Shown here one piece after another: positions 33,470 to 44,400 of a stretch of DNA of 64,000 bases. The notes under the pieces were generated by a model. It worked only from the letters and a program-made list of their open reading frames with translations, was not told where the DNA came from and did no database searches. The stretch's first letter is position 1. Every line of letters starts with the position of its first letter. The DNA comes from Tetraselmis striata (Eukaryota > Chlorophyta > Chlorodendrophyceae > Chlorodendrales > Chlorodendraceae): the NCBI GenBank assembly GCA_006384855.1, contig VCJN01003596.1:186001-250000 (forward strand). The letters run 5' to 3'. The position numbers and the translations under genes were made by a program.

Positions 33470-34389
<920 letters not shown>

Positions 34390-35061: not shown

Positions 35062-35088
35062 AACAGTAATTTAACCTATTTTGCGCCG
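35062..35088 (+). repeat. Left terminal inverted repeat of the 9.3-kb element
   Basis: 27 bp, 25 of which match the inverted right end. Similarity weakens beyond GCGCCG, although both sides carry TGCA/GGGTTT words a little further in. Confidence 0.75.
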
Positions 35089-35251
35089 TGGAATTCATTT
35101 TGCACCGTAGGGTTTGTTTATACCCTAGTTCCCGGGTTTACTATCAGTACTTAAGACTCACTGGTGATGTAGCTTGGGTTTGTAGACTTGGGTGCAGTGC
35201 AGCATTCAACAGCATGAAGGCCAGCCGCGACGCATATCCAATGTTGGTTTT

Positions 35252-36012
35252 GGAGCATTTTGTCCAAAATGGGACAAGATGAGGCAATGAAATCAATATT
35301 TATTATGATTATTACATCCAGCGGCTAGCTAGCCACAAGACGTTGCTGATAGTTTATTCGTTGAGCATCCCCAACTCAAGCAAGTCCTTCTTCGTGGCTG
35401 CGTTAAACTTGACGACTCCGCCGGGTTTGCGTTGCGCTGGGGTGGTTGACATGACGTGGACGCAGTTGTTTCGTGGCTGGCTGATTTGCCACCCAGTTTG
35501 CGCATATGTCTTCACGACTTGGACGCTTTTACCGTACCACTTCTTTCTGACCATGGTGCCGTCCTCGTTGAACACCTCTCGACTTCCCGACGCGTCGTGG
35601 ATGGCCTTCGCGTACGATAGGGGGACGGCTTCAACAAGCTTCCAAGGAAGCGTCAGGCACTTCTCCCAGCTTGTGTCAACTGGCTTCTTCCCTCCTTTTG
35701 TCTGCGCGTACAACCATAGGGGCATGAGGGGTTTGCCCTTTGCATCGGCATGGAAGGGCTCGTATACGGCCACGGTCAACGTGTCTTCGGTAGTCTCGCG
35801 CGACTTCACAAGCCCGATGACGAATCTCGACTCCCAATCACCAAGAGTTTCAGGACACTTGTCTTCCTCATGCACCTAACGATGACCAAGACCGCGAGCT
35901 ATGTTAGTCCCGAGCGAGACGCCACGCCATTTTTGTCCCAGCTGGGACAAAATAACAAGCAAGGTAGAAGAACCAAATTGTTTTGTCCCGTAAAGGACAA
36001 AAATGACAAACA
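35252..36012. promoter_or_regulatory. Left-side TTTTGTCC/GGACAAAA palindromes
   Basis: Three inverted motifs occur: TTTTGTCC-AAAAT-GGGACAAG at 35258-35279, TTTTGTCCCAGCTGGGACAA at about 35930-35950, and TTTTGTCCCGTAAAGGACAA at about 35980-36000. The last two lie in intron 3 of the DUF7869-type gene. They share the words TTTGTC and GGGAC.AAA with the 24-bp intron arrays. A role as transposase-binding sites is a guess. Confidence 0.5.
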
Positions 36013-39000
36013 ATGGGACTCACATCGGAGACGTCGATGACAACGAGGTTCGAGCCCTTTGCATCGCTGGGCGATGTGTTGTCATGAAGCCTCTCCTTGG
36101 CGCCGGCGTGAACTCCCCGGAAGGCGCTGTCATCTTGAAGCACTTGAGCACGAACCTCGGCTTCAACGCGAGCGGCTTCGGCATTGTTGAGGTCTGCGTT
36201 GGTAGCCATCGTGTGACGTGCCTCAGCAGGCGCGGTCTGCCCGTGCTCGCGCAAGAAGTCGTCAACTTCCTCTTTCCGTTGCGGCCAGAACCCGGAGAAA
36301 GCTGCCGAAGGAGCAGTTTGCATCTCATCCAAGTCGTCGAGCAGATTCTTCCAGCTCTCGCGCTCGACTGGGGAGAAGTGCCACTGGACCGCCAGGTCCG
36401 TGATGTACGACCTGACCTTCTTGAAATCATCCAAGTACCTCTGGACCTTCACCGCGTCGGGCTTCTTTTTGTCGCAGAGAGCGTACAAAAGGGGCCGGCC
36501 CGCACGAATCTCGGGCGTCCCAGTTGGCGCGCTCTTCAAGATCTGCACGGGCTCAGAAAGCGGTGTGTTGGACCACAAGGCGGTGCGCAACGAGCCGCCA
36601 GACGCGGCGGCGTCGTCACGGGTGAACTCGAATTTGTGCGGCTTACTGATGTCCTGAATGTGGTCTTGGAAATGGGGCCTTAACCACTCAGAGAAGTCGA
36701 GGGAGAATGAGAGCTCAGCAATCTCCGGAGTGGGCGAGAATGCCTTCGCCACCAAGTCAAGAAAGGCCTCGATTGTGTAGGCGGAGCTGCGAGATAGCGC
36801 AAGACTGATGCGGCTGAAGATCTGGTCAACCCGTTCGTGAGTGTGCCCGACAGGCAAGAAGACCAAATGAATGACGTCGCAGATGCCGATAGACACAAGC
36901 CAATTGCAGAGGGCCGCCACGTTCCTATTCTTGTTCTCCCTGACGGTGTTGTCCATCTGGATTCTGATGTACGGAATCTTTCTACCACGGTGTTGAATTT
37001 CCTGCATCGCAGACCAGATTTCATCAGTCCATGGCTACCGGACAACCACGGCGAACCTATCGGGAGGCTAACGAGCTCACCTTCATGATCGTGATCCATA
37101 TCAGAGTGCACGTCGTGGACGAATCGTGGGGGATGGTGTTGGTGTAGTAGTAGATGTCGTCCGGGCGGTATCCGTCGTACTTCACACAGGTGAGGTGGTA
37201 CTTGAGGAGCATGTCGGGCTTCACAGTCTTGGGGATGCGAACCCAGTGAGGCAGCAGGGTCTTCGCGGAGTCCATGCTATCAATTTCGAAGAAGAAGAAG
37301 TTTCCATGGCCAAGGCGCGACTGGAAGACGGCGTTGTTCAGATCCCTTCGTTCCTGGCGCACTCTCTCGAGGTGTACCTTCTGCTCAGCTCTGACCTGAC
37401 GCCTCACCAGCTGCTGATGTTGACGGTGCACTTGACGTTCCTCTGGCGTCATGTCCTTTGTGCAAATCTCGCGAGCTTGGTCTCTGAGTGCTTTGCCCGC
37501 CGCGCATATGGGACAGTGGCTGAATCGCTTCACCTTCGGCGTGGTGACATCCGGGAAGTCTTCCTTCCAAGTCCGGCGGAAAGTGTCGAACGATGCGAGC
37601 TTCACTTCGCTCTCGGTAGCCAACTCTACAAAGGGGCAGGGGCATGATAGGTCGGTATACAAATATGGTCTCATAATGCGAGACAGAAAAGTTCGGTCTA
37701 AAGTGGGTCGAAATAATTATATCGGTAGTGGGTGAATAATTCTGTAATCAGCTTGGCAAAACAATCTGTCATCAGTGTGACGAAACGGTATGTCAGTAGT
37801 GGGACAAAACCGTCTCTCAGCAGTGGGACAAGACGTTCTCTCTGCAGTGGGACGATATCGGCTAATTATGTGGGACAAATACTTTTGTGGTCGGTGGGAC
37901 GAAACGGTATGCCATGAGCGGTGCGAAACGTTCTGTCATCAGTGGGACGAAATCGGTCCGGCGTCGGTGGGACTAAACGTTCTGGCGATAACGGGACGAA
38001 ACGGTTTGTCATCAGCGGGACAAAACGGTTTGTCATCAGCGGGACAAAACGGTTTGTCATCAGTGGGACGAAACGGTTCGTCATCAGTGGGACAAAACGG
38101 TCTGTCAGCAGCGGGACAAAACGGTTTGTCATCAGTGGGACGAAACGGTTTGTCATCAGTGGGACGAAACGGTTTGTCATCAGTGGGACGAAACGGTTTG
38201 TCATCAGTGGGACGAAACGGTTTGTCATCAGTGGGACAAAACGGTATGTCATCAGCGGGACAAAACGGTTTGTCCTCAGTGGGACGAAACGGTTTGTCAT
38301 CAGCGGGACGAAACGGTCTGTCGTCAGCGGGACGAAACGGTATGTCATCAGTGGGACAAAATGGGCCTCACCACGGAGAATGACGTTGTCGTCCTCGGCC
38401 CACGACTTGTAGTAGTAGTAGACGCAAATCTTGGTCATCCAGGGAGGTAGGTGCTTCTTGAAGGTCTCGCTGTTTCCGTCATGAAAAGGCATGATCTCGA
38501 CGTGACCGAGGTCATCCGAGAAGAAGTGCTCGAGAAACATGCGCACATGCTCCCTCGGTCCGGTCTGTCTGCTCTCGTATTGCTTGCGCTGCTTGATGTA
38601 CGTGGGTTCGTTATCCACCACCGACCGCTGGATCACGAGACGTCTGTGTTTCGAGACCTGATGCAAGACCTCCCACGCACGCCCACACGTGTAGATGGGG
38701 CCGCGATGATCGAAAGATCGCAAGTAGCCACCGTGATCGAACATGTAATCGAACTTGTCGGATGCCGACTCGTAGCCACCCCTGAGAACCTGAGCGAGCC
38801 GGTCAAAGGAGCGGTTCTGATTGCCAGAGTATACGGTCAACGCACGGTCCAACACGGCATCAACGAGGGCCTCTCCGCACTGTGTGTATAGCTTCTGCAC
38901 GCACTTGCGCGAACAGCATGGCGACTGCTCGCTAGCCTCCTTGGCGAGCATGAGGCGGATACAATCGCGAGAGGTGCGCTTGCTGATCAGAGACGAGACC

Positions 39001-39197
39001 TTGCCATTACCGCTTTCGGCGACCTCATCGCAGCCCTTGCCCCACGTGTACTTCCTTTTCTCAGGCTCCTTACGATCACTCGCACGCGCGTCGCAATCAC
39101 ACGAGTACCCACTGCGGCACGAACACAGCGGTAATGTAACTGTAGTGTCCGACGCGCCGGATCCTGGAGAAGAGGCCATGCTTTCGACCGCCGCCAT
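35354..39197 (-). CDS. DUF7869-type protein, candidate transposase (4 exons)
   Basis: Exons 39197-38372, 37625-37081, 37001-36024 and 35875-35354 join in frame to 956 residues with no internal stop. The splice sites are canonical: CGTG|GTGAGG, ATGAAG|GTGAGC and CCGAT|GTGAGT as donors, TAG, CAG and TAG as acceptors. Residues 1-60 are low-complexity and Cys-containing. A CCSRKC motif lies near 115, and a CPIC motif near 314 precedes a Lys/Arg/Gln-rich helix (PEERQVHRQHQQ). The core has FFFFEIDSMDSAKT (Asp about 391), RIQMDNTVRENKNRN (Asp about 474) and FLPVGHTHERVDQIFSRIS (Asp about 516). That arrangement typifies DUF7869-type proteins of algae and other eukaryotes and looks like an RNase-H-fold D-D-D set. 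Intron 1 (746 bp) is a 24-bp repeat array. The open frame, 956 codons across four exons, suggests recent activity. The family name is from memory, and the transposase function is inferred. Confidence 0.8.
37676..38364 (+). repeat. 24-bp tandem array in intron 1 of the DUF7869-type gene
   Basis: The unit is close to GGTTTGTCATCAGTGGGACG-AAAC. About 16 regular copies occupy 37985-38364, and about a dozen degenerate copies extend to 37676. The unit has imperfect dyad symmetry (GTTTGTC against GGGACGAAAC). Because 24 is divisible by three and the unit lacks stops, several frames stay open on both strands; these are not genes. Confidence 0.95.
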
Positions 39198-39735
39198 GCA
39201 GCGCGGGGCGAGTGGGTGGGGGGGGGGGTGAAGGACTGTGATCTGTGGTGAGGAAGAGTGACGGCCGATGACCGTTCTCGGACGGGCCGTTCACCGGGGT
39301 GCATAATATCCAGGTACGGGTCAAAATAATTGATGACTCAAATACCGTGTTATTTCGTGCTTCTTTCGTATGTCGGAAATAGTTCTATACTAGTAAGTAC
39401 ACCCGAATCCAATCCAAGGAATATATCATCCCATGAAGGAATATTATTGCCACGCCACTGTACTCTCGTACCGTTATGACTCTCGAGTAGGGAATATTTT
39501 ATCTTCCAGTAATAGTAATATATAGTCGCAGTAGTTAGCCTTGTATATTCGTCGCGGTGCAAAATACATGAACCTGATGACGACGACGAGGTACACTATA
39601 GTGTGCGCACGCGCGCCGTTGGTCCAACAGGGGTCAGAGCGGCGGCAGACGGAAACCACGTCATTTCCACCTCTCCCTCACCGCTTCCCACCAAGAAACC
39701 CGCTCATCTACCGCGTCAACCTACCTACCGCCAGA
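39198..39735. promoter_or_regulatory. Shared promoter region of the two divergent genes
   Basis: The 538 bp between the two start codons must hold both promoters if the starts are right. It is more AT-rich than its surroundings and contains TATA-like words such as AATATATAGTC near 39517. No specific factor site can be named. Confidence 0.45.
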
Positions 39736-41832
39736 ATGGCGCCGAAGAAGAACGAGCCTGCCAAGGACAAGGAAGACAAGGACGACGCCACCCCAGGTGA
39801 GTTGCGCGCGCGTACAGTAGCTGCCTGCCTGCTCGACGCGTGATACGGCCAGATCTAGCGAGTTCGGCCGAACCCTAACCGGTTAGGGTTCACTGTAGAA
39901 GCGGTGTAATCTAGGACCACTCGAGGTGTAGGCAGACGAGTGGCAGCGTACAGTAGCCGCCTGCCTGCTCGACGCGTGATGCGGCCAGATCTAGCGAGTT
40001 TGGTTAGGGTTCCCTGTAGAAGCGGTGTAATCTAGGACCGCTCGAGGTGTAGGCAGACGAGTGGGAATAGAAACCCAAACGAGACGAGCGGCATCAGGGT
40101 CATGTAGGGTGGTATTACGTCCCGTCGAGGCAGCTGTTGCAAGCAATAAGGATGCTAATTGGTGGTGGGAGGGGGTGGGGGTGAAGAGCGGCCAGGGGGA
40201 ACCTCTGCCTGTACTCCGCCGTAAGGAGTGGTTTAATATTAGTGTGAAGCGCAGTACTTAAAGACATAACATTATTAAACCGCAGTACATAATGTATTGA
40301 AAATAGATTTGTCATCAGTGGGACAAAACGGTTTGTCATCAGTGGGACGAAACGGTTTGTCATCAGCGGGACGAAACGGTTTGTCATCAGCGGGACGAAA
40401 CGGTTTGTCATCAGTGGGACGAAACGGTTTGTCATCAGCGGGACGAAACGGTTTGTCATCAGCGGGACGAAACGGTTTGTCATCAGTGGGACGAAACGGT
40501 TTGTCATCCGTGGGACGAAACGTTCTGTCATCAGTGGGACGAAACGGTTTGTCATCAGCGGGACGAAACGGTTTGTCATCAGTGGGACGAAACGGTTTGT
40601 CATCAGTGGGACGAAACGGTTTGTCATCAGTGGGACCAAACGTTCTGTCATCAGTGGGACGAAACGTTCTGTTATCAGTGGGACGAAACGGTCTGTCATC
40701 AGTGGGACGAAACGGTTTGTCATCAGTGGGACGAAACGGTCTGTCATCAGTGGGACGAAAAGTTCTGACAGGATATGATGTTTATAGGCCGAAGGTCCAA
40801 GCGGACATCAAAACCTACCGAGAAAGCAAAAGAATTCGATGCGCTCGGAGCGCTAGTAGGGAGAAAACACAAGGCGTCATCTTCTGTGCCAGAGCAGCCG
40901 GCGGCGAAGAAGAGCCGTGCAGCCTCAGCTTCTGCAGCTGGAGCCGGCGCTGAGGCATCAGGTAACCCCTGGAAACCGAGCCTTTTAAGAGGTAGGGTGC
41001 CGGCTTACGGCACGCACTCGCAAGGAGAAAGATCGGCCGCCTTGCTTTTGAGGGCCCGAATCAAGAGCGGCCAGGTCCTCTCAGATGCTCAAATGCAGAC
41101 AGCGCGAAGGCTAATGGATTACGAAAAGCTCATGCAAGCTTACTATGAATCAGGTCCTTGCCTCTCCAATCATATGATTTTTGTGAGTGCACAGTGTCAT
41201 ATTGACATTGTTTGAAATCATGTGCGTTGACGGGTTCGAAAGGACGCGCACATGAGACAGTAGCGACTAAAGCTTCAAAGGAATCCAAGGGGAAAGAAAA
41301 GGTTTCAGAGACGATTGTGACTCCAGGTAATTGTGACTGAAAGTATCAATCCCTGCCTTTGTGAGTGCACTGTGTCATATTGACATTGTTTGAAATCATG
41401 TGTGTTGACAGGTTCGAAAGGACGCGCACTTGAGCCAGTAGCGACTAAAGCTTCAAAGGAATCCAAGGGAAAAGAAAAGGTTTCAGAGACGATTGTGACT
41501 CCAGGTAATTGTGACTGAAAGTATCAATCCCTGCCTTCTCAGTCCCTTCGATTACTTTCTCGTCAATGAGTTATCTGACGTTCCAACAGGTCGTAAATTG
41601 GCGCAAGCAACCGCGTCGGAAGCAGCTGGTAAATCGGGATCCCCAGGTAAGAAAAATTACGCTTGGCTTTGATGGTGTATGGCGATACCGTTCAGTAGTT
41701 AATCGTGATGCCCACTGCAGGTGTGTTGAGTACTCTCTACTCATTCTTTACAGGTACCCCGAATCAAGCCTCTTCTTTGTCTAAAGGCCCATCTCAAATA
41801 CCGGAAACAGAGCCTGAGCCTGAGCCATGGAG
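39736..41832 (+). CDS. Basic Lys/Ser/Ala-rich N-terminal part of second transposon gene
   Basis: Proposed exons are 39736-39796, 40788-41153, 41412-41504, 41590-41646 and 41754-41832. All internal junctions use the same phase (a lone G before GT donors), which makes the exons interchangeable cassettes. The start is MAPKKNEPAKDKEDKDD; exon 2 adds RRSKRTSKPTEKAKEF and PAAKKSRAASASAAGAGAEA, with stretches like nuclear localisation signals. Later exons are short and rich in Lys, Ser and Pro (KASKESKGKEKVSE; ETEPEPEPW). The donor at 41154 is weak. Intron 1 (991 bp) holds a two-copy repeat and a 24-bp array. The join to the next exon (41921) is off by one base in my model, so this could be a separate gene or an N-terminus whose junction I have misplaced. 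No domain is recognised. Confidence 0.5.
39811..40064 (+). repeat. Two-copy direct repeat in intron 1 of second transposon gene
   Basis: 39811-39944 and 39948-40064 share CCTGCCTGCTCGACGCGTGA, GCCAGATCTAGCGAGTT and GTGTAATCTAGGACC. The first copy has an extra 17 bp or so around an ACCCTAACCGGTTAGGGT palindrome. Confidence 0.9.
40305..40768 (+). repeat. 24-bp tandem array in intron 1 of second transposon gene
   Basis: Nineteen copies of the same 24-bp unit as at 37676-38364, in the same orientation on the plus strand. It ends 20 bp before the exon 2 acceptor at 40787. Copies differ mainly at AGCGGG/AGTGGG and GGTTTG/GTTCTG. Confidence 0.95.
41183..41538 (+). repeat. 178-bp tandem duplication containing an exon cassette
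   Basis: 41183-41360 and 41361-41538 are near-identical copies. The downstream copy carries exon 3 with an intact acceptor (GTTGACAG|GTTCG). The upstream copy has GTTGACGG at that place, so its acceptor AG is lost, although the 93-bp reading frame (GSKGRAHETVATKASKESKG) is preserved. Confidence 0.85.
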
Positions 41833-41920
41833 GTAAGTTGTGACCGACCCCAGTGTCTTAATCATATGGAATACTATCATTGATTCCTTTCTCCGTACTG
41901 AAGTTTGTTTTTCGACCCAG

Positions 41921-44079
41921 GATGTCGGCTTTGGACCCCATGCGCCCTGGCTAGACGAGCCGTCTCTTGCCAAGCAGAGCGACAGCGCGGATCTCCCTGT
42001 GGGCCAGATGTACCTGGTGGTTGGACTGCTCATCCAAGGCGAGCACAGTGTGACCCCGAGCCTCTACGAGCTGGTGGATGACATTAAGCACGCCGGCGAC
42101 AATGGCCCCATGGCTGTTACGCACACCAACGCGGAGTGGCTCGCGATGATTGAGACCTGGAGGTTTCGCGATCTCTTGCGTCGAGCAAGCATCAAGCTCA
42201 TGAATGTCATTGACACGGCCAAGGGCAGGGAGACAATCCAACTGCTGACGCCGGACGAACCGGCCAGGAATTGGGGGAAATATCTCTCGGACCACATCAT
42301 CGATTGGGATGTGCAAGACAAAGTGTCGGATGAGCAAGCCGCCGCTCGCCTTGACGCCATCACCAAGTTCCGAGCCAATGTTGATGACCTCGGCCCAACA
42401 GGCTTCCCCAGAAAGTTCCAGGATTTGCTCAAAGGTGCTCATCGCTCCGGTCCGTTGATGGTCTTGCTGACCCCTCCTGCCAAATGGGGGGACATGAAAT
42501 CCGCCGATTGTCTCACACCACTACCGGTTCGAGAGCATATCGCGGCCACCAACACCACCATCAGGAGTGAGGCGTATCGCATCAAGAATCAGATGCCGGA
42601 CTTAGTCATCTCCTTCTTCACATAGTTTGCTCTTCTGGCATGTGCGCCGGAGCTTATCGCGGTTTCCGCTCCGAATGTTTCTAATGAGCTGTGGATATCG
42701 ATGAAGGTAACTAAGATCTTGTGCAACCACAAATGCTCTTCTGAATTTTCGTTGTGAGCTATTAACCCGAATCTGTTTTCTGACACACACAGGCCGAGGA
42801 ACTTCCGGTGATGCCCAAGGGAGAAGGGGTCGACAAGGATGACAAGGGTAAGGTGTGGTTGAACACGGAGCTTTGCAAGACTTGCATTGTGGAGGGGAAC
42901 TTCAAGGCACCCGCGACAAAACAATTCGTCGCGGACGCCATGTCGGCAGTTCGTGCCAAAAAGGCAACAGTCTTCATTGCCGACGCGCTTTTCGGAGCTG
43001 GTTCGCACACATGGGACTCGAAGGATGCTGCGTGGGGTACGGACGACTTCAACGACGTGTTTGCTTTCGCCAGGCAAGACAACCCCCACAACCCCGGTGC
43101 GTACTAGATGACTGTGCTTTCATTTATCCCATTCCCGATTTACCCCCGCGCAGGCAGTTGAATATCCATACTGGATCTTCTGACGTCCACACTGCTCTCG
43201 ATGGGTGCCATTTCTTCATTCACCTCTCGGACCAGCAACTTGGATCCGCAATCACAGCCGTTCAAAAACAAGCTGAGGACCTCATCTATCACGTCCTGAC
43301 TTGGGCCAAGGATTGCGGGATGAAGATGGGCAGCTCTCTGCGTCACGACGCTGAGTACTACCTCTACGTCAGGAAGCCCCCGCCAAGCATCATAGCTGAC
43401 AACATCCGTTTCGATGATCCCCGAAGGTGAGATTTGATCCGTGGAAAATAGCCGGCTTGTATATTCTACTCGCTAAGCCGGTTGTGCCTTTCCAGATTCT
43501 CTACATCCATCATATTGGGTCACTTCAAAGACAGTTCGAAATTGAAGGACGAGAACAGACAGACGGTGAACAAGTACCAAAAGCCTATCGCTCTCTTCGC
43601 CAAGCACCTTAAGATGGCGGCAACAGACGGGACAACAATCGTCGACGTCACAGCCGGAACCGGGACAACCGCGGTGCGTGAGGGGTGCAACCCGGGTGAG
43701 TTTCTTAATGGATCAGCATAAAAAAACTAACGCCTTGTGCGGTTTGCCACGCCTTTTCCAGGTCGCTGCGGCCTTTTCCGTGTGGTGGGACCATATGGAT
43801 CATACCTACTCGTTCACACACAGGAACTTGAAGATTATCCTCATTGACAACCAGAAGACGCAAATCGCTGGGATGAAGTCCAGGATGACCTCATGGTTCA
43901 AAGAGAAGCCATGGGACGAGACTCAAAGACTGCGTCCAAGTGACTTCGAGAAGTGGCCGGGTCTACCCCATCCAATGACCGAGTTTGAGGAGCAGATAGA
44001 GCGTGTAGCGGCGGATAAGAGGAGGCAACAGGCGGCAGAGCGCCGAGGGGATTATGTGATCGAAGATGATGATGTGTAG
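41921..44079 (+). CDS. DNA methyltransferase-like gene, possibly disrupted
   Basis: Proposed exons are 41921-42706, 42793-43073, 43154-43426, 43496-43673 and 43762-44079. The last four join in frame and read like an N6/N4-type amino-methyltransferase: IADALFG stands where DPPY is expected, followed by TWDSKDAAW; then LIYHVLTWAKDCG, EYYLYVRKPPP, KYQKPIALFAKHL and the cofactor loop IVDVTAGTGTTAVAA with RNLKIILIDNQ. Intron 43074-43153 has a GC donor (CAG|GCAAGA). The first exon contains an in-frame TAG at 42622-42624 between SFFT and FALLACAPELI, and no ATG starts it, so either a splice is missed or the gene is damaged. The catalytic DPPY is altered to DALF, so activity is doubtful. The tail is acidic (YVIEDDDV). 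It would act on DNA in the nucleus if functional. Confidence 0.6.
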
Positions 44080-44111
44080 TACAATTCCGCAAAATTAGCC
44101 GCTCATATGTT

Positions 44112-44290
44112 TTGTCCCGGACGGCACAAACTACTTGTAGCCATCACGGCCCCCGCTCTTTTTTGTCCCAGTTTGGACAGAGTTTCAGCCCCCGATGGCG
44201 CAAACTTCTTGTAACGATCCCGTTTCCTTCAATCTTTTGATTTGTCCTTGCTTGGACGAAATTGGTTTCCCCGACTTGGCACAAAATGAA
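44112..44290. promoter_or_regulatory. Right-side TTTTGTCC/GGACAAA-type motifs
   Basis: Four spaced pairs occur: TTTTGTCCCGGACGGCACAA, TTTTGTCCCAGTTTGGACAG, ATTTGTCCTTGCTTGGACGA and a final GACTTGGCACAAAAT. They echo the left-side palindromes and the 24-bp intron repeats and lie within 300 bp of the right terminal repeat. Confidence 0.5.
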
Positions 44291-44373
44291 CCAACCGGCA
44301 TTCATATTAGCTTGCAATCCCACTGCTGCCCCCAAACCCTAATTTAGACCTAACCACAATGCACCGCGTGCCT

Positions 44374-44400
44374 CGGGGCAAAATAGGTTACATTACTGTT
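44374..44400 (-). repeat. Right terminal inverted repeat of the 9.3-kb element
   Basis: Inverted match of 35062-35088 with two mismatches in 27. Confidence 0.75.

Follow-up and report, generated by a model that had tools for sequence, protein, structure and literature searches.

A damaged copy of a multicopy DNA transposon family in Tetraselmis striata, most likely Sola-like, with a candidate DUF7869 transposase and a methyltransferase-like partner

Transposons of the Sola superfamily encode a DDD (three-aspartate) transposase and generate 4-bp target-site duplications; most are 2-9 kb in size, some exceed 15 kb, and their terminal inverted repeats (TIRs) span 11-1124 bp (PMC10741241). In the brown alga Ectocarpus, an element published in 2025, Sola1-1_Ec32, measures 21.5 kb and bears an opposite-strand gene for a protein combining a ParB-like domain with an N4/N6 DNA methyltransferase domain (PMC12477816). 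The same article cites Iyer et al. 2011 and Petroll et al. 2025 for ParB-methyltransferase proteins in green and red algal transposons, and for the suggestion that such proteins modify the transposon in which they reside (PMC12477816). The present analysis concerns a 9.3-kb element at positions 35,062 to 44,400 of a 64,000-nucleotide stretch of Tetraselmis striata DNA (contig VCJN01003596.1, positions 186,001 to 250,000), called the window below. A sequence-only reading had taken this element for an inverted-repeat transposon whose DUF7869-type protein is the transposase of a distinct superfamily and whose DNA may be marked by its own methyltransferase, a proposal much of which has already been published for a different alga, with the Ectocarpus Sola1 element and its ParB-methyltransferase gene (PMC12477816). 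The best explanation is probably that the element is a defective member of a cut-and-paste transposon family present in many copies in T. striata, most likely of the Sola superfamily (Sola1 group), with the DUF7869 protein as transposase and the second protein in an accessory role.

The two TIRs, which begin with AACAG, are identical at 27 of 30 positions, and the match of 25 of the first 27 bases that had been read from the sequence was recovered. A 23-base end pattern, allowing up to two mismatches, was found 298 times in forward and 280 times in reverse orientation in the 224-Mb genome; since these 578 matches stand against 0 for the same pattern reversed, the ends are not a product of chance. 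The two ends also co-occur elsewhere, with paired ends on one contig spaced 7 to 24 kb apart. Seventeen end pairs, namely those pairable among the matches listed and not a random sample, were inspected for target-site duplications. Directly outside the ends, 13 carry an exact 4-bp repeat, one carries 2 bp and three carry none, and in a control in which flanks from different copies were mispaired, 4-bp identity was seen in 2 of 272 cases. For the empty-site test, the flanks of 13 copies were joined with one copy of the duplication kept, and the genome was searched. Four of these rebuilt junctions (C821, C2865, C586 and C140) are present whole elsewhere at 98-99% identity, and for the remaining nine the 40 candidates scored out of 3910 included no whole match. 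With its multicopy ends, 4-bp duplications and empty sites, the element is a mobile DNA transposon of the cut-and-paste type.

A diverged right end (88%) lies next to the C2683 copy at C2683:40889-40974; judging by the order of bases in the joined flank, it seems to end at that copy's 4-bp duplication, and it is perhaps a related, older subfamily. The flanks of the C586 copy fall inside a LINE-like (long interspersed nuclear element-like) repeat, which is seen in C541 (L082, 4174 onward) with a reverse transcriptase recognized by eye and has at least 39 other copies.

The DUF7869 gene occupies the minus strand in four exons. It comprises 956 codons, as had been read earlier, with the JGI Tetstr1 acceptor, which starts exon 3 near 37001, and 967 codons with an alternative acceptor; Tetstr1 is presumably the label of the T. 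striata gene models. The best matches of the protein are to Tetstr1 proteins, about 97% identical, on which basis the host is taken to be T. striata, a chlorodendrophyte green alga. Exon 3 alone matches DUF7869 (PF25273) at 1.1e-37. PF25273 was also matched by all members of alignments A1 (34 sequences) and A4 (57 sequences), which had been chosen as homologues. The gene of the window copy is still open, and the aligned exons are stop-free in all eight copies compared, the window included, with residues 1-151 absent from C914. Across 57 distant homologues an aspartate (Asp) pattern is near-invariant: in P0142 numbering, D339 and D457 are present in all 57, D336 in 56 and D415 in 55, and the neighbouring E454 in 41. 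The spacing of the three Asp residues, 76 or 79 and then 42 residues, is in keeping with the DDD transposase pattern. Because the gene is open and its D...D...D set is near-invariant, the DUF7869 protein is very probably the transposase of the element, and it is the best candidate for the role that had been proposed for it.

The second gene lies on the plus strand, so that the arrangement of two divergent genes between the ends was borne out. For 65 of the 150 DUF7869 exons scored, the nearest methyltransferase exon is divergent and within 15 kb; it is convergent for two and on the same strand for three, with about 0.7 divergent pairs expected by chance. The 150 were scored from 548 DUF7869 candidates against 135 methyltransferase matches among those listed, the latter being matches to the first part of the query, with those covering only residues 209-274 left out. 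These counts show that the two divergent genes travel together.

In the C2683 copy, an extra stretch completes the second gene to 15 exons and 1570 codons, under our own splice-site model, which is partly unlike the Tetstr1 model P0082. The C-terminus of the C2683 protein, with motif I DVTAGTGTTA, matches PF01555 (N6_N4 methyltransferase-like) at 1.2e-7 (32.4 bits, the cut-off being 26.7) and, at 3.7e-9, a DNA methyltransferase of PHROGs. In the window, motif I (DVTAGTGTTA) lies in an exon inside the final open stretch of the gene, in another frame and before the last intron. The N6/N4 methyltransferase-like domain read earlier from the sequence is confirmed, though with a weak score; in the window the gene itself is broken. 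A search for relatives of the second protein yielded 62, all of them Tetstr1 proteins except one metagenome protein cluster (P0114), and for this reason the middle of the protein is uncharacterized. The Tetstr1 models P0044 and P0046 match both the DUF7869 protein and the second protein, which could reflect genes joined in the annotation or copies with deletions.

A second DUF7869 family is present in the same genome, 46-53% identical to P0050 in most matches. Its left end, AACATTCGTTCATT, is sharp and multicopy (C1345:54583, C782:117646 and C875:22043; L068, L069 and L067), and its right end was not located. Among 65 of its 117 matches, on 58 contigs, none has a listed methyltransferase match within 20 kb; a divergent second gene is probable for this family too. 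At C1567:361200-363500 (L085), a fragment of the window family interrupts a second-family element, a nested insertion. The second family bears on whether, within a genuinely mobile unit, the long second protein could be the transposase and the DUF7869 protein the accessory. The large size of the second protein and the near-confinement of its relatives to Tetstr1 (61 of 62, the other being the metagenome cluster) would suit such an exchange of roles, which is nevertheless very improbable: the protein ends in a methyltransferase-like domain, the conserved D...D...D set is in the DUF7869 protein, and the other DUF7869 family has a multicopy end of its own with no listed methyltransferase match nearby.

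Several findings weigh against a Sola-like element with a DUF7869 transposase and a methyltransferase-like partner. The exact 4-bp duplication is missing in 4 of the 17 paired copies, and the window copy has none. The integrase core PF00665 was detected in 1 of 91 aligned homologues, within DUF7869 and below the Pfam cut-off, and the catalytic core has no sequence match among solved structures (profiles A1 and A4, protein P0003), with nothing below 0.07 for A4 and P0003. No methyltransferase lies within 15 kb of 80 of the 150 DUF7869 exons among the matches listed, some of the contigs being short. The Tetstr1 models P0044, P0082 and P0083 score 25.7, 25.4 and 24.8 on PF01555, just under the cut-off. 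A ParB domain was not detected in the second protein by Pfam, PHROGs or solved-structure searches; a stretch reading DGSHRREAKRM seems to us ParB-like by eye only, with no profile match. Active beta-class DNA methyltransferases carry a motif IV of the form (D/N/S)PP(Y/F/W), for example DPPY, and the expected place reads ADALF, not DPPY, in 7 of the 7 covering rows of an eight-row, one-genome alignment in which the motif was placed by our own assignment. Motif IV therefore looks degenerate, and it is doubtful, from the residues, that the second protein still methylates. With this motif degenerate-looking and the second gene broken in the window, the suggestion that the element may be marked by its own enzyme is weakened.

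The core search and the duplication length also bear on two other kinds of transposon. Ginger elements too make 4-bp duplications; in fungi, KDZ elements bring along DNA-modifying genes, and in algae they may reach giant size. Yet Ginger ends read TGTNR, as against AACAG here, and its integrase is of the Gypsy type, the core of which appeared below cut-off in a single homologue; the duplications of Zisupton, of the KDZ group, are 8 bp, as against 4 bp in the Tetraselmis element. A Ginger-like or KDZ-like identity is thus extremely unlikely.

DUF7869 is widely distributed. Named relatives come from sea urchins, sea cucumbers, starfish, brittle stars, a feather star, acorn worms, amphioxus, bivalves, corals, anemones, sponges, a ribbon worm and the liverwort Riccia, and others come from metagenomes; 120 of 154 matches were listed in one search, with names for part of them. 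No relative was found in 14 control genomes; viral contigs and one-per-species prokaryote genomes likewise gave none to a narrow probe, in each case an alignment of five animal sequences together with two peptide patterns. Such a spread over animals, a liverwort and metagenomes, a separate Pfam model, a core that matches no solved structure by sequence, and a literature search in which no paper naming DUF7869, PF25273 or IPR057191 turned up, would all agree with DUF7869 transposons forming a superfamily apart from Sola, the 4-bp duplication and DDD core being convergent. This is judged unlikely, as the 4-bp duplication, the DDD pattern, the size and the two divergent genes with a methyltransferase coincide with the published descriptions of Sola and of the Ectocarpus Sola1 element (PMC10741241; PMC12477816). 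The distinct superfamily proposed from the sequence alone is accordingly not supported, since the duplications and DDD core fit Sola and the Ectocarpus parallel, with its opposite-strand ParB-methyltransferase gene, is in print. A further, circumstantial point in favour of a Sola link comes from molluscs: all those named among the listed DUF7869 matches are bivalves, and in one survey Sola was restricted to bivalves among the molluscs analysed (PMC10294476). Membership in Sola1 is likely, and the family is filed as Sola-like, probably Sola1.

The structure searches also returned a match away from the catalytic core. Among solved structures, profile A1 hit a Nipped-B-like protein (1.1e-9) along with stathmins and a single short peptide. 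The Nipped-B match covers the C-terminal domain of the animal DUF7869 protein, and its dismissal as mere composition was rejected, the alignment and a single-sequence search showing a real match: P0056 residues 693-778 align with the C-terminus of the cohesin loader NIPBL (6wge chain E residues 1541-1626; 2.2e-8). The match was not seen with profile A4 or the Tetraselmis protein P0003. The NIPBL tail and these transposase-like proteins may share an ancestral domain, perhaps one captured from a transposon. One Branchiostoma DUF7869 protein is fused to a Ulp1 peptidase, a domain that occurs in several transposon families.

The copy in the window is damaged. Seven end-to-end copies were read, with lengths of 10.6-14.8 kb, and all carry 2.7-4.4 kb extra at the breakpoint listed in Table 1. 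The window element is an internally deleted, defective copy of an abundant transposon family; with its second gene broken, it could not be upheld as a complete element. No empty site was found for it among 40 scored matches: 4 other places match the left flank and 34 match the right flank, a repeat from 44401 onward, but no place matches both. The two flanks are different repeats, and because their matches never co-occur they have probably been rearranged. The lost part of the second gene and the absent target duplication are probably due to later rearrangement. A 178-bp tandem duplication at 41180-41537 (2.0 copies, 96% matches), also present in C2683, doubles one exon of the second gene together with its intron. 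Outside the element, a long (CA)n microsatellite lies at 34281-34386.

Table 1. Features of the transposon copy, in window positions
Feature	Position	Strand	Remark
Left TIR (AACAGTAATTTAACCTATTTTGC...)	35062..35091	+	End comparison and genome-wide copies
Palindrome TTTTGTCC...GGGACAAG near left end	35258..35279		Same place in 8/8 copies
DUF7869 gene exon 4, C-terminus and stop	35354..35875	-	
Two palindromes TTTTGTCCC...GGACAAAA, third intron of DUF7869 gene	35929..36002		8/8 copies
DUF7869 gene exon 3, second and third Asp regions (QMDNTVRENKN, GHTHERVDQ), most of DUF7869	36024..37034	-	
DUF7869 gene exon 2, first catalytic Asp region (EIDSMDSAK)	37081..37625	-	
24-bp palindromic tandem array, first intron of DUF7869 gene	37757..38361		
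DUF7869 transposase candidate exon 1, Cys-containing N-terminus	38372..39197	-	
Broken second gene (methyltransferase-like accessory protein), with an internal deletion and a premature stop	39736..44079	+	
24-bp palindromic tandem array, first intron of second gene	40308..40760		
Deletion breakpoint	41823..41826		7/7 end-to-end copies longer here
Premature stop in second gene	42623..42625	+	C2683 copy reads through
Open stretch, last part of methyltransferase-like protein	43570..44079	+	
Three degenerate palindrome copies near right end	44110..44261		Loose matches, like places in other copies
Right TIR (AACAGTAATGTAACC..., read inward)	44371..44400	-	End comparison and genome-wide copies

One palindrome is common to the end-proximal sites and the intron arrays of the element, and this is newly described here. 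All eight copies have sites of the TTTTGTCC...GGACAAAA type at distances of 197-198, 868-869 and 917-918 bp from the left end. All eight also have looser matches, differing by up to four substitutions, at 139 and about 213-218 bp inward of the right end. The seven longer copies have a further array of the palindrome in their extra block, at a place that the C2683 model reads as intronic in the second gene. Elsewhere in the window, over 54.7 kb, the strict form does not occur. The loose form has four matches outside the element in the window and a few chance-looking ones inside it, and the right-end sites are weak evidence because of these additional matches. In the second DUF7869 family the arrays are of another palindrome (GCGTCCAT...ATGGACGC), and one of them probably sits in an intron of its DUF7869 gene.

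That the 24-bp arrays and shared palindromes are merely expanding minisatellites with no binding role is a real possibility, put at somewhat less than an even chance. Array lengths differ between copies, as in any minisatellite, and the right-end sites are degenerate, the loose pattern matching outside the element as well. A simple expansion fits less well with the same three left-end places in all eight copies, with arrays in introns of both genes, with the absence of the strict palindrome from the rest of the window, and with the different palindrome arrays of the second family. A bolder proposal, held to be rather improbable, is that of self-recognition, in which the methyltransferase-derived partner would read a family-specific TTTGTC...GGACAAA near both ends and in the intron arrays, thereby marking or coating the element. 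If this were true, the transposase or the host silencing machinery could distinguish complete elements from the rest. Each family would then carry its own code, the arrays of the second family, probably intronic, being built of a different palindrome. The shared palindromes supply defined DNA sites for tests of binding or modification.

Under the preferred reading of a Sola-like element, the DUF7869 protein would bind the ends as a DDD (RNase H-like) transposase and insert the element into 4-bp staggered cuts. More weakly, the second protein, with its N4/N6-type methyltransferase-like end, may be an accessory DNA-binding factor that recognizes the TTTGTC...GGACAAA palindromes to regulate or mark the element. 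DUF7869, a widespread domain of unknown function, would in this way gain a well-supported role as the transposase of a DNA transposon.

Compared with known systems, the closest is Sola1-1_Ec32, likewise a giant DNA transposon with a second gene opposite the transposase strand and an N4/N6-type methyltransferase domain (PMC12477816). Its product has been proposed to act on the DNA of the element itself, by binding and modification, as has the partner protein of the Tetraselmis element. The two differ in size, at 21.5 kb with a protein of 1104 aa in Ectocarpus as against 9.3-14.8 kb and 1570 aa (one modelled copy) in Tetraselmis, and, by description, in the ParB-like domain, which no profile detects in Tetraselmis. 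With the Sola superfamily as a whole the element shares, by description only, 4-bp target duplications, the DDD pattern (as a pattern only), the size range and short TIRs (PMC10741241). The algal ParB-methyltransferase transposons cited in PMC12477816 are alike in having a methyltransferase gene aboard; in the Tetraselmis protein motif IV looks degenerate. TET/JBP-carrying fungal transposons, including KDZ, also enclose a DNA-base-modifying gene within a DNA transposon, but theirs encodes an oxidizing dioxygenase rather than a methyltransferase-like protein, and Zisupton duplications are 8 bp (PMC12730594). DIRS1-like elements likewise contain a methyltransferase domain of unknown role; they are retrotransposons with a tyrosine recombinase, a mechanism unrelated to that of the Tetraselmis element (PMC3266345). 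Among these systems, the T. striata family offers a green-algal case, in many closely similar copies, of the transposase and methyltransferase pairing reported for the brown-algal Sola1 element.

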